This document shows, piece by piece, positions 38,199-62,601 of a DNA stretch of 64,000 nt (position 1 is its first letter; every line of letters begins with the position of its first letter). Source of the DNA: Gemmatimonadota bacterium (lineage in GTDB: Bacteria; Gemmatimonadota; Gemmatimonadetes; Gemmatimonadales; Gemmatimonadaceae). Both the position numbers and the translations under genes were made by a program. The stretch is taken from assembly GCA_014192065.1 (NCBI GenBank), contig BJHH01000002.1, positions 1-64,000 on the forward strand, written 5' to 3'. The notes beneath the pieces are model-generated. The model saw nothing but the letters and a program-made list of their open reading frames with translations, ran no database searches and was not told the origin of the DNA.

Positions 38199-39349
38199 TG
38201 CGTTCAATCATCCGGCCGCTGGACAAGTACGTCCTGAAGGAATTCCTCGGCATTTTTGTCGCGGCCACGGTCGGGTTTCCGATCCTCGTGATCGTGCTTG
38301 ATGTGACCGAGAACCTCGGCAAGTACCTGCAACGCCAACTGCCGCCTCTCGACATCGCGCAGGCGTACCTGTATGGCGTACCGGAAACGATGTTTCAGGT
38401 GCTGCCCGCGGCGGTGCTGTTCGCGACCGTGTTTTCTATCGGCTCGTTCACGCGGCACGCCGAGATCACCGCGGCCAAGGCATCGGGCATCAGCTTTCAC
38501 CGGTTCATCTTGCCCATCGTATTCGGCGCAATGGTGTCCACCGTCCTTGGACTCGGGCTGGGCGCCATGATGCCCGCCGCGAACCAGCGGCGCGGCGAGC
38601 TGCTGCAGGAGCGCAAATCGAAGGGGCTGGACTACCGCGGCAACTTCACGTTCGCGAGCGAAGACGGACGCGTCTACAAGATTGGCGGCGCCGATGCCCT
38701 GCAAGGCACGCTCGATGACTTGGAGATCGAGCGGCGCGGCACCGGTCCGGCCTTTCCGACTTATTTGATCTACGCGCGCAACGCGCGGTACGCCGCCAGC
38801 TCGCCCGCCAGCTCGCCCGCCAGCTCGCCCGCCAGCTCGCCCGCCAGCTCGCCCGCCAGCACGGGCCAGGTGTGGACGCTCAAGCAGGGCATCATCCACA
38901 TCATGCCCGACGACTCAACCAACTTCGCCGTCTCTTTTGACTCGCTCCGCGACCCGAACTTTCGCGAGGCGCCGCGCGCCGTGATGGCCGACCCGCGCGC
39001 GCCTGACGAAATGGGATTCACCGACCTCGGCGTGTTCATCCAGGCGATGGAGCGTTCCGGCACCGACGTGAACAAGTTCCGGACAGCGCGCATGCTCAAG
39101 CTCGCGATTCCGGTCACCTGCGTGATCATCATGCTCTTCGGCGCCCCGCTCGCCACGAGCACGCAGCGCGGCGGCGCCGCGCTCGGCGTTGGTATCAGTC
39201 TCGCGACGACGATTGTCTTCCTGATGCTCGTGCAACTGACGCAGGCGATCGGCGACAAGGGACTCGTCATGCCCGAACTGGCGGCCTGGATTCCAAGCGC
39301 GGTATTTGGAATCCTGGGGACCATACTCCTCGTACGGGTACGGACATGA
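38198..39349 (+). CDS. lptG: LPS-export permease LptG
   Basis: Second permease of the LptB2FG complex, 383 aa. The N-terminus SIIRPLDKYVLKEFLGIF and FTRHAEITAAKASGISFHRF coupling helix are family hallmarks; three helices on each side flank the periplasmic jellyroll, and the C-terminal part has GAPLATSTQRGGAALGVGISL. An ASSP tetrapeptide is repeated five times in the jellyroll (about residues 200-221), from a 12-bp DNA tandem repeat. ATG at 38198 overlaps the lptF stop; the gene's own stop overlaps the mlaE ATG (ATGA). The LptB ATPase is not in the window. Confidence 0.93.
   Translation: MRSIIRPLDKYVLKEFLGIFVAATVGFPILVIVLDVTENLGKYLQRQLPPLDIAQAYLYGVPETMFQVLPAAVLFATVFSIGSFTRHAEITAAKASGISFHRFILPIVFGAMVSTVLGLGLGAMMPAANQRRGELLQERKSKGLDYRGNFTFASEDGRVYKIGGADALQGTLDDLEIERRGTGPAFPTYLIYARNARYAASSPASSPASSPASSPASSPASTGQVWTLKQGIIHIMPDDSTNFAVSFDSLRDPNFREAPRAVMADPRAPDEMGFTDLGVFIQAMERSGTDVNKFRTARMLKLAIPVTCVIIMLFGAPLATSTQRGGAALGVGISLATTIVFLMLVQLTQAIGDKGLVMPELAAWIPSAVFGILGTILLVRVRT
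38795..38860. repeat. 12-bp tandem repeat in lptG
   Basis: Five perfect copies of GCCAGCTCGCCC (38795-38854) plus half a sixth. It is in frame, encoding ASSP repeats, so copy-number change would alter length without a frameshift. Confidence 0.95.
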
Positions 39350-58189: not shown

Positions 58190-60835
58190 TCAGACCGCTC
58201 GGCCCGCACCGCGAATCATGCTCTCGACCCGCCGCGCTGGATCGAACGAGGCCTGTGCGACCATCTGGATATTTGCGGCCGTGACGGCATGGATCCGCTC
58301 ATCGTAGCGGGCGATGTCATCCATCGAATCACCGCACATCCAGGCGTCGGCGAGGTCGCCCATGATGGCGGATGCCGCTTCGCGACGGATGGCATTGTAC
58401 CCAACCGCAAAGGTCTTGGCCTGCTGCAGCTCACGTTCGGTGACCGGTTCGGAACAGAGCCGCGCGAACTGGCCGAGAAATCCCGCCCGAGCGGCTTCGG
58501 CTTTCTCCGGCGAGGTCGCGATGTAGCCAAGGAATGCGCCCGCGTGACGGCGCAGGACCGGCGTGACCATCACGGTATAGGCGAGCGACTGCCGGTCGCG
58601 CAATTCCTCGAAGAACCGGCCGCCGAGCCCGCTCGCCACTCCGGAGAGCAATGACGCCGCGAATCGGTGGTCGTCGCCGCGCGCGGGACCGGGAAAGAGC
58701 ATAGCCAAGGCCGACTGCGCCTTGTCGCGCGACTCGGTGCGTTGCACCGGACCCGCCGGCCAGGCGGGCGCTGGCACCGCCCTTACCGTGCGCGGCGTGA
58801 GCTCGCTGAACCGGCGCGCAATCGCTCCAACCGCATCGTCGGCATCGAGGTCGGCCACGCACACGATCACGCCCTCCGCGGCAACGGCCTGCGCCTCGTG
58901 CCAGGCACGGAGCGCGTCGGCATCGAGCCGTCCGAGCGATGCGGCGACGCCGAGCACCGACCGACCGTATGGATGGTCACCCCAGGCCACCTCGGTGGCG
59001 AGCCGCAGCGGCCACCGGAACATGTCGTCGCGGATCGCGGCAAGTTCGGCGAGCGCGACGGCGCGTTCCGACTCGACGGCGTCGTCGCGGAATGCCGGAC
59101 GTTGCACCACGTCGGCCAAGAGTTCGACGGCGTCGTCGAACCGCGCCACCGGCACAGACACCGTCCACTGGAACCCGTCCGCGGCCGCCGAACCGCCAAG
59201 CGCACCACCAGCAAACTCCACATCTTCGGCGAGCTGCTTAGCCGACCGCCGTTCCGTCCCGCGGAGCGCCACGCGCGTCATGAGCGACGTCACGCCGGCA
59301 TTCGCCGCTCCCTCCTGCAGTGCACCGCCATTCACGAACCAGCCGACGTGGGCGATCGGGCTGCGCGCGCGCTGGAAAACGATCGGCACGCCTGTCCCCG
59401 TCCGGTAGACGGATATGTCGCCGTGGCGGCGTTCGAGCCGCCAAGCGCACGATCCGCCCTTCACCACGGCAACCGGCTGCGTCAGCGTCACTGGGTCTAC
59501 CGGATCGGGTCGGTCGCCAGTAAGCATCGTGATTGCCTCATCCGCACTTGAGGCAAACGGCGTGGCACTCGACGGGCGATACACGAGCAGCGCGGCACGC
59601 TCGGGCGCGAGCCAGCGTTGGGTGACACGGCCGACCGCCTGCGCGTCGGCGTCGAGTATCGCCTCGAGATAGTCGCTGCCCCGCTCCCAGCCGCCCATCA
59701 ACTCCCAGGCGGCCAGATGATTGGCCTGGCCGTCCACCGTCTCGAGCCCGCGGAGCCACTGCGAGGACACCATGCGGCGGGCACGTTGGACTTCTGGCGC
59801 GCCCAGATCGCCCTCACGCATCCGCTCGACCTGATCCCATGCCGCGCGCAGCGTACTGGTGGCCCGCTCGGGTCGCGCCGTGGCGTGCACCACAAAGACG
59901 CCAAGCTCGGTTGGTGTGTAGTTCCACGCACTGATTGACGACGCGAGACGCCGGTCGCGCACGGCGCGAAAGAGCCGGGACGCGCGTCCCCCCGAGAGCA
60001 CGACCGACGCCAGGTTGAGCACGGGCGTATCGGCATGCGTGAGCTCCGGCGTGCGCCAGCCGAGCAGCACTTCGGACTGTTGTACGTCGCCGTCGAGTTC
60101 CTGATACCGCAACCCAGGCGCCCGCGCGGAGGCTTCCGTCGGACCCGGAGTTCGCACCACGGGCTGGTCGGGCACGGCGCCATACCGCCGCATCGCTTCC
60201 GCGATCGCATGCCCCGCCTTCACATCGCCAACGATGGAAAGCACGGTGTTGCGCGGACGATAGAAGTTCTGGTAAAACCCGAGCACCTTGTCACGCGTCA
60301 GCGCACGGAGTCCCGGCTCCCGACCGATCCGCCAGCGCCGCATGCGGTGTGTGTCGTGCAGCAGCGCGAACAGCGTCTCGGTGGCCACGGCCGTCGGTGT
60401 GTCGGACTTTCGCTTGGCTTCTTCAATGATGACTTCGAGCTCGCGCCCAAGTTCGCCACGATCGATCAGCGAATTGGCGTACGCGTCCGCCTGGATCTCC
60501 ATGCCCGCTTCGAAACCGTTCGCGGGCAAGACCGTGTAATAGTGCGTGTGATCGTAAATGGTCGCCGCGTTGAGCAGGCCACCGCTCGCTTTCGTGGCGC
60601 GGGCGATCTCCCCGACGCCTCGGGTCGGCGTGCCCTTGAAGTACATGTGCTCGAGCACGTGCGCGATACCGGAGACGTCGTCGGTCTCGTCGAAGTACCC
60701 CGCGCCGACATACGTGACAATCGCGACGACGCCGCAGCCTGACTTTGGCCGCACGACCACGCGTAGCCCGTTCGGCAGCGTTTCGCGCACCACGCTTCCG
60801 GCGGGGAATACGCTGTCGAGCAGACGCGGGTTCAT
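58190..60835 (-). CDS. Two-domain M16-family zinc peptidase
   Basis: 881-aa clamshell peptidase of the insulinase family M16 (pitrilysin/PqqF relatives). The N-terminal half holds the inverted zinc motif HVLEH (H59, E62, H63) and the third ligand near E138/E139 (ELEVIIEEAKRK); the second half repeats the fold without the motif, as is normal. No signal peptide is seen. ATG at 60835 overlaps the stop of the ABC exporter (ATGA), so the two are translationally coupled. M16 enzymes next to an ABC exporter occur in peptide-processing systems (for instance the Bacillus alb genes), but no precursor peptide is evident here. Confidence 0.92.
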   Translation of the reverse strand: MNPRLLDSVFPAGSVVRETLPNGLRVVVRPKSGCGVVAIVTYVGAGYFDETDDVSGIAHVLEHMYFKGTPTRGVGEIARATKASGGLLNAATIYDHTHYYTVLPANGFEAGMEIQADAYANSLIDRGELGRELEVIIEEAKRKSDTPTAVATETLFALLHDTHRMRRWRIGREPGLRALTRDKVLGFYQNFYRPRNTVLSIVGDVKAGHAIAEAMRRYGAVPDQPVVRTPGPTEASARAPGLRYQELDGDVQQSEVLLGWRTPELTHADTPVLNLASVVLSGGRASRLFRAVRDRRLASSISAWNYTPTELGVFVVHATARPERATSTLRAAWDQVERMREGDLGAPEVQRARRMVSSQWLRGLETVDGQANHLAAWELMGGWERGSDYLEAILDADAQAVGRVTQRWLAPERAALLVYRPSSATPFASSADEAITMLTGDRPDPVDPVTLTQPVAVVKGGSCAWRLERRHGDISVYRTGTGVPIVFQRARSPIAHVGWFVNGGALQEGAANAGVTSLMTRVALRGTERRSAKQLAEDVEFAGGALGGSAAADGFQWTVSVPVARFDDAVELLADVVQRPAFRDDAVESERAVALAELAAIRDDMFRWPLRLATEVAWGDHPYGRSVLGVAASLGRLDADALRAWHEAQAVAAEGVIVCVADLDADDAVGAIARRFSELTPRTVRAVPAPAWPAGPVQRTESRDKAQSALAMLFPGPARGDDHRFAASLLSGVASGLGGRFFEELRDRQSLAYTVMVTPVLRRHAGAFLGYIATSPEKAEAARAGFLGQFARLCSEPVTERELQQAKTFAVGYNAIRREAASAIMGDLADAWMCGDSMDDIARYDERIHAVTAANIQMVAQASFDPARRVESMIRGAGRAV

Positions 60836-62601
60836 CTGGCGAACGACACGCGGCGAAGCACGACCAGCGCCGCGATGAACGCGAGGGCGCCGTAGCCCAG
60901 TACATGCCAGACGTGGGGCCAAGGCATGGCCTGCCCCGCGTACAGTTGGTCGCGGATGGAATCGAGTTTGTGGGTCGGGGGCAGGAACCGCGTCACCTGC
61001 GCAAGCCACGGCCACATCGGCAAGTTCTGCGTGTTCTTCAGCGTGTGCAGGACGTTACTCACAACGAAGACGACTACGAGGAGTGCTGTGTCGGCATTGG
61101 TCACCGCGGTCAGCAAGAAACCGATGCCGCCGATCAACACCCAGCTGAGCGCCATCACGATCAGCACTTCGCGGACCGGCAGCGCGGTCGTCCCTGCCTG
61201 CAGCCAGGATGCCAATAATCCGGCGATCGCGATGAACCCTGCGCCGTAGAGGAGCCATTGTTGCGCGTAGAACCGCTCGATCGACACCGGCTTGCTGAAG
61301 AGGAAGCGGAAATACCCGTTCGATCGGTCGTCTGTGACCATGCGCGCGACGCCGAGGAACGAGCCGATCGTGATAAAGACGCCGGCGAGGTTGCGGAACA
61401 TGCCGTTGGCGAACGACTGCCCGTCGGGCGTGTCCCATTCCATGGCCGGTCCGGCCTGCTTCCAGACCATGAAGCCGAACATGACGACGAGCAGCGTGGG
61501 CAAACCCGCCCGCATCAGCACAAAGTCCCGAAGCTGGAACCTGAGCAGGTACGCCGTGATGCGGCCGCGCGTCGCCAGCCCGCTCATGCGCCACCATCGG
61601 CGCCACCAACCGCTGCGTGGAACTCGGCTTCGAGTGCGCTTTCGCGCGGCGCGAGCCCGGTCACCTGCGCGCCGAGCGCGAGCACCGGCGCCACCACCGG
61701 CGCCACCAACCGCTGCGTGGAACTCGGCTTCGAGTGCGCTTTCGCGCGGCGCGAGCCCGGTCACCTGCGCGCCGAGCGCGAGCGCCGTTTGCAGCCCGGC
61801 GTTGAGCTCCGCCAGACCAAGCGCGGGCAACACGACCTCGCCAGGTCCCACCACACGGGCGCCGGGAAATGTGGCGAGCACCACGGCCGGATCGCTGAGC
61901 ACGCGGAGCACATAGACGCGCGTGCCCGACTCATGCGAATCGCGCACCGTCACCACGCGCTGCAGCTTGCCGTGATCGATGATCGCCACACGGTCGGCCA
62001 CGCGCGCGAGCTCGTCGAGGTTGTGCGACGCGATGACGATCGCGCGATTCGGATGCCGGAGCTCTGTCACGACCGAGCGAAACCGTTGCGTCCACAAGGG
62101 ATCGAGCCCGTGCGTTGGCTCATCAAACACGACGACGTCATGCCCGCGCAACAACGCCTGAGCGAGCCCCACGCGCTGGAAGTTTCCCTTGGAGAGGGCC
62201 TGCACCGGCTTCCGCCGATGCTCGCCGATTTCGAGGAGCGCAATCACGCGCTCCACCTCGACCTCGACCCGGTCGGCCGGAACGCCGTCGAGCGTCGCGA
62301 GTCGACGCAGTGCATCGTCCGTACGCCAGCTTTTTCTCAGAGTCATTAGCTCGGGCAAGTAGGCAATGCCATGCTGCTCGACGTAGCGGCGCGGCTCGAG
62401 CCCAGCGATCGTCATCGTGCCGGTCGTCGGACGAAGGAATCCGAGCAGCATCGCGATGATCGTCGTCTTGCCAGCGCCGTTCGGGCCGGCGATGCCGACC
62501 ACTTCGCCGGCTGCGACATCGAGCGTCACATCGTTCACGGCGAGCACCGGCCGGCCGGTCAGTGACCGGTACGATTTCGAAACGCCCCGGAGCGAAATCA
62601 T
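60832..62601 (-). CDS. ABC exporter: ATPase and permease fused by a 100-bp duplication
   Basis: 589-aa fusion. Residues 1-310: ABC ATPase with Walker A GPNGAGKTT, signature LSKGN (variant of LSGGQ), Walker B VVVFDEPTHGLDP and H-loop ASHNLDE. Residues 339-589: ABC-2 permease of six helices starting MSGLATRGRITAYLLRF. Between them lie 30 Arg-rich residues (GARARRAGDRARAARKRTR and on). That linker is the out-of-frame reading of a duplicated 100-bp segment. In the frame of the first copy the ATPase would stop at GGADGGA-stop, with TGA overlapping the permease ATG at 61587 as ATGA, the ancestral two-gene state. Followed by the M16 gene with ATGA overlap. Confidence 0.85.
   Translation of the reverse strand: MISLRGVSKSYRSLTGRPVLAVNDVTLDVAAGEVVGIAGPNGAGKTTIIAMLLGFLRPTTGTMTIAGLEPRRYVEQHGIAYLPELMTLRKSWRTDDALRRLATLDGVPADRVEVEVERVIALLEIGEHRRKPVQALSKGNFQRVGLAQALLRGHDVVVFDEPTHGLDPLWTQRFRSVVTELRHPNRAIVIASHNLDELARVADRVAIIDHGKLQRVVTVRDSHESGTRVYVLRVLSDPAVVLATFPGARVVGPGEVVLPALGLAELNAGLQTALALGAQVTGLAPRESALEAEFHAAVGGAGGGAGARARRAGDRARAARKRTRSRVPRSGWWRRWWRMSGLATRGRITAYLLRFQLRDFVLMRAGLPTLLVVMFGFMVWKQAGPAMEWDTPDGQSFANGMFRNLAGVFITIGSFLGVARMVTDDRSNGYFRFLFSKPVSIERFYAQQWLLYGAGFIAIAGLLASWLQAGTTALPVREVLIVMALSWVLIGGIGFLLTAVTNADTALLVVVFVVSNVLHTLKNTQNLPMWPWLAQVTRFLPPTHKLDSIRDQLYAGQAMPWPHVWHVLGYGALAFIAALVVLRRVSFAR
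61591..61783. repeat. 100-bp tandem duplication, frame-shifting
   Basis: Copy 1 is 61591-61690; copy 2 is 61691-61783. Positions 61601-61683 and 61701-61783 are identical over 83 bases, with a T/C difference at 61597/61697. The period of 100 is not a multiple of three. Confidence 0.97.

Follow-up and report, generated by a model that had tools for sequence, protein, structure and literature searches.

A tandem duplication of 100 bp, a length of the form 3n+1, appears to have turned a coupled pair of NosF/NosY-like ABC-2 transporter genes into a gene for a single chain with an ABCG-like layout, a reading to which we assign a probability of about 80%. The locus lies on the reverse strand of the window, a 64,000-nt stretch of DNA from a Gemmatimonadota bacterium. 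How genes fuse is usually reconstructed only when much time has passed; in this case the mechanism, the ancestral state and the frame arithmetic are all legible in one sequence, and the locus offers a rare, clean snapshot of gene fusion.

The fused ORF (60832−62601, reverse strand) encodes 589 amino acids with no stop anywhere in it, and comprises an ABC ATPase (residues 1 to about 305), an out-of-frame linker and a permease (residues 339−589). Tandem Repeats Finder reported one array here, at 61588−61787, with a period of 100, 2.0 copies and 98% matches. The copy that is transcribed first occupies 61688−61787 on the reverse strand and is read in the ATPase frame, and the second copy (61588−61687, reverse strand) forms the linker. 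Base-by-base comparison at an offset of 100 bases found 98 of 100 bases equal. The only mismatched pairs are 61597/61697 and 61684/61784, which leaves 86 bp (61598−61683) as an identical core. An exact tandem repeat of this length is far beyond chance expectation. The initial annotation had recognised the 100-base period correctly; its borders (61591−61690 and 61691−61783) were off by about 3 bases, and its figure of 83 identical bases was a slight undercount.

The novel joint between the copies consists of a perfect 12-bp repeat of 2.2 copies (61683−61708, reverse strand; Tandem Repeats Finder and base comparison), which reads GGTGGCGCCGGT GGTGGCGCCGGT. Judged by the copy that adjoins the original flank, the unit originally had, at the two mismatched positions, a C at its 5' end and an A close to the 3' end. 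The derived bases, T at 61684 and G at 61697 on the reverse strand, lie on either side of the new joint, the former 3 nt past it and the latter 11 nt short of it. Both fall inside the 12-bp repeat and complete it; most likely they arose together with the duplication. Since the copies are otherwise unchanged, the duplication is recent, in agreement with the "very recent" origin first proposed for it. The ATPase gene has a 3' end that is rich in Gly, Ala and Pro and varies among relatives (in the closest one, L008, it ends SGGQPAGQPAGAA), and such a GC-rich, variable end would be a natural place for slippage. Phase variation through a change in copy number is conceivable, the presence of two copies being all that points to it.

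Could the genome hold a single copy, with the 100 bp duplicated by the assembler? The fusion does rest on a single assembly (2.45 Mb in 16 contigs, 97.75% complete) and was found in no other genome of those searched. Against such an artefact, the joint carries two bases that are absent from both original flanks and that stutter would not create. Moreover, 800 kb of this genome contained no other tandem array with a period above 30 bp; with the next-longest period being only 30 bp, neither the genome nor the assembly is full of such events, and the assembly does not seem prone to this error. We therefore consider an artefact improbable, and the duplication is presumably present in a living population.

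When the locus is translated in the ATPase frame, the first-transcribed copy is read correctly, the second copy is read one base out of frame, and the permease frame is then reached at its ATG; the other two frames across the duplication each contain a stop. The out-of-frame copy yields a linker of about 33 residues that is rich in Arg, and 13 of the 38 residues preceding the permease Met are Arg. The former ATPase stop TGA (61586−61584), which overlaps the permease ATG (61587−61585) as ATGA (61584−61587, reverse strand), now lies outside the ATPase frame. Removing one copy in silico gave two genes of the usual length, encoding an ATPase of 305 aa and a permease of 251 aa; with the copy adjoining the permease retained, the ATPase C-terminus is ...AAVGGADGGA followed by TGA, and this stop and the permease ATG at 61587 overlap as ATGA. 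The initial annotation thus had these features right: the 589-aa ORF, the permease start, the ATGA overlap, the GGADGGA-stop ending given by a single copy, and an out-of-frame linker rich in Arg. A programmed frameshift was dismissed, as the fused frame is already open without any shift.

The dependence of fusion on duplication length was followed by simulation, in which tandem duplications were introduced into the single-copy form. Among duplications ending at the same edge, with lengths up to 400, fusion resulted for 82 of the 134 lengths of the form 3n+1 and for none of the 266 other lengths. Tandem duplications of 10−300 bp placed within the final 150 nt of the ATPase gene fused the pair in 18.5% of simulated cases.

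Fused relatives were searched for in 61 and subsequently in 288 genomes of the order. The family was present at high score in 80 of the 288 genomes, and only in the source genome did the match run without a break across the entire fused protein (0 of the 79 other genomes holding the family). A further search in genome_contigs found no fused relative, the nearest named relatives there being Gemmatimonadota MAGs, and the plasmid collection gave no match. In one Gallionella locus (L046) the match covered both parts, yet the locus was not one ORF. We scored 78 junctions in relatives, drawn from 29 relatives read first, 37 further stretches and other loci. In every one of them the ATPase ends in its own stop and the pair is encoded by two separate genes. 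The stop and start are arranged as ATGA in 45 cases, GTGA in 23 and TGATG in 8, so that they overlap in 76 junctions, 68 of these by 4 nt; of the two exceptions, one has its permease start 10 nt downstream and the other lies on a contig that ends inside the permease. The 29 relatives read first already had this pattern, with an own ATPase stop in all, an ATGA or GTGA overlap in 28 and TGATG in one. Predicted Shine-Dalgarno pairing at the permease start was −4.9 kcal/mol in the fused locus, whereas the median of the relatives was −6.9, a difference that is not telling by itself.

These comparisons indicate an ancestral pair with overlapping stop and start, as the initial annotation had supposed; the overlap is 4 or 1 nt in the 76 relatives that have it, and translational coupling itself is a prediction from this arrangement. 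With all scored relatives separate and none of the other genomes fused, the fusion appears to be derived and recent, and it is known only in one genome assembly. The possibility that all relatives carry the same fused form with a diverged linker is contradicted by these junctions, and the gene fusion event is upheld at the DNA level by the duplication, by the frame change that it causes and by the unfused relatives. An old, inherited fusion whose copies have been kept alike by gene conversion is very improbable: the 12-bp units at the joint do look homogenised, but none of 17 genomes of the same genus (junction readable in 15) carries the fusion, including the closest one (G008), which has 75% ATPase identity and separate genes with an ATGA overlap.

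The surroundings of the locus resemble those of its unfused relatives. A TPR protein of 369 aa (62636−63745, reverse strand) precedes the fused ORF, and an M16 peptidase of 881 aa (58190−60835, reverse strand) is the next gene after the permease, its ATG overlapping the permease stop as ATGA (60832−60835). Both are conserved neighbours: the order TPR protein, ATPase, permease, M16 peptidase (58190−63745 here) is kept in most of the relatives, which are Gemmatimonadales-like. In three genomes of the same genus (L010, L012 and L014) the first permease is followed by a second one, about 31% identical to the permease of the fused locus; within the genus the operon thus has either one permease or two.

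Both halves of the fused protein are well preserved. The NosF-like ATPase part (61688−62601, reverse strand) runs in its own frame through the first-transcribed copy. It matches PF00005 (ABC_tran) at residues 22−163 with 87.4 bits (gathering cut-off 25), and its translation contains a Walker A motif (GPNGAGKTT), a signature (LSKGNFQRV), a Walker B motif (VVVFDEPTHGLDP) and an H-loop (ASH). At columns that are at least 90% conserved in 21 relatives, it keeps the residue in 97 of 99. The permease part (251 aa; 60832−61587, reverse strand) has no substitution at the conserved columns. Its Pfam match, to ABC2_membrane_3 at residues 396−579, is weak (22.9 bits against a cut-off of 31.6), and the permeases of two relatives have no Pfam match. 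Modelled alone with AlphaFold2, the permease reached a pLDDT of 90.7, and the model matched NosY (Z 18.0, 220 residues, rmsd 3.4), ABCG25 (Z 16.1) and PmtCD (Z 14.1); the model thus places it in the six-helix ABC-2 fold, of NosY type.

The full chain, modelled by AlphaFold2 with the relatives as alignment, gave two confident domains (mean pLDDT 88.6), with the lowest confidence around the linker, at about residues 300−342. The pTM was 0.58, so the relative placing of the two domains is not fixed by the model. Full-length chains of ABCG and ABCH proteins matched the fused model; for ABCH-9C the alignment covered 451 residues (Z 24.8, rmsd 8.7). Judged from its domain order, the fused ORF has the layout, and the layout only, of an ABCG-type half-transporter, with ATPase and then permease in one chain.

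We propose that an ABC-2 ATPase gene, overlapping its permease gene as ATGA, underwent the duplication at its 3' end, which is GC-rich and variable. In the ancestor, ribosomes would have stopped at the ATPase TGA and re-started at the overlapping ATG, as demonstrated for overlaps of this kind (PMC10666635, PMC6728339) and for pairs of ABC genes (PMC3711429). With 100 bp inserted, the ATPase frame would have bypassed its old stop and run on into the permease, giving a product with the ATPase at the N-terminus, a basic linker of about 33 residues after it, and the six-helix permease at the C-terminus. Ribosomes would now pass straight through, with the fusion protein probably the main product. 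A separate ATPase would no longer be possible in frame; some separate permease may still be made from its own ATG, since this ATG and the 100 bases upstream of it are unchanged. Two fused chains might dimerise as ABCG half-transporters do.

The duplication may instead be real and inactivating, a recent frameshift that cost the cell its free ATPase and left a non-functional product. At the DNA level this overlaps with our preferred reading and differs from it only on function. With at most two differences between the copies, the event is too recent for decay to be visible, and the linker is accidental, very basic and predicted to be unstructured, so that poor folding or cleavage of the product is conceivable; the copies are also so alike that the fused form may be short-lived or deleterious. 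On the other hand, both domains are intact and open and the linker has no stop. In ABCG proteins a fused ATPase-permease chain of the same fold and in this domain order is a working layout. We consider inactivation possible, although less probable than not.

Several known systems bear on our preferred reading, the fusion of a coupled pair by a 3n+1 duplication. ABCG and ABCH half-transporters likewise carry ATPase and then permease in one chain, and their permease fold matches (Z about 14−16); the present fusion appears to have arisen separately and recently, and its linker is an out-of-frame repeat copy. NosF and NosY of the NosDFY ABC-2 transporter resemble the two halves in structure. NosF (7o0y_C) matches the whole ATPase, accessory domain included (Z 26.7, 289 residues, rmsd 3.9), and NosY matches the permease as described above; however, identity is 29% for the ATPase and 11−13% for the permease, NosF and NosY are themselves separate chains, and the present locus instead neighbours a TPR protein and an M16 peptidase.

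Short gene overlaps are coupled by termination-reinitiation and are enriched in subunits of complexes (PMC10666635, PMC6728339), and ABC transporter pairs are a main class of such frame transitions (PMC3711429). In translationally coupled pairs of ABC transporter genes (GeneTack coupling clusters, drrAB; PMC3711429) stop and start overlap, which corresponds to the ancestral state here, whereas at the present locus the stop is out of frame and the pair forms one ORF. In deletion-born bacterial fusions (PMC12803068, PMC7671302) a structural mutation also joins coding sequences into one ORF; these studies concern deletions, and the M. tuberculosis pipeline retained deletions only. The present duplication, in contrast, adds DNA, joins adjacent overlapping genes and leaves a record in its copies.

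Bacterial gene fusion is thus a known kind of event, and it is the route that we did not find described, in which a 3n+1 tandem duplication hits a coupled overlap and its two copies can still be read: the literature searched, whose coverage is incomplete and which is therefore weak evidence of novelty, held no report of a coupled pair fused via a frameshifting tandem duplication. Where the common ATGA overlap occurs, a single 3n+1 insertion separates coupled subunits from fusion, which is a general prediction across genomes. More tentatively, 3n+1 tandem duplications at ATGA overlaps may be a general one-step route to fusion proteins, with this locus a working, fresh ABCG-like transporter at its first step; we regard this combined proposal as speculative.

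The same window contains a second, unrelated repeat. At 38793−38860 a perfect 12-bp tandem array of 5.7 copies, in frame and encoding SSPA repeats, sits inside a membrane-protein ORF of 436 aa (38039−39349, forward strand), whose product appears to resemble an LptF/LptG-type permease. This array is a sign of recent slippage.
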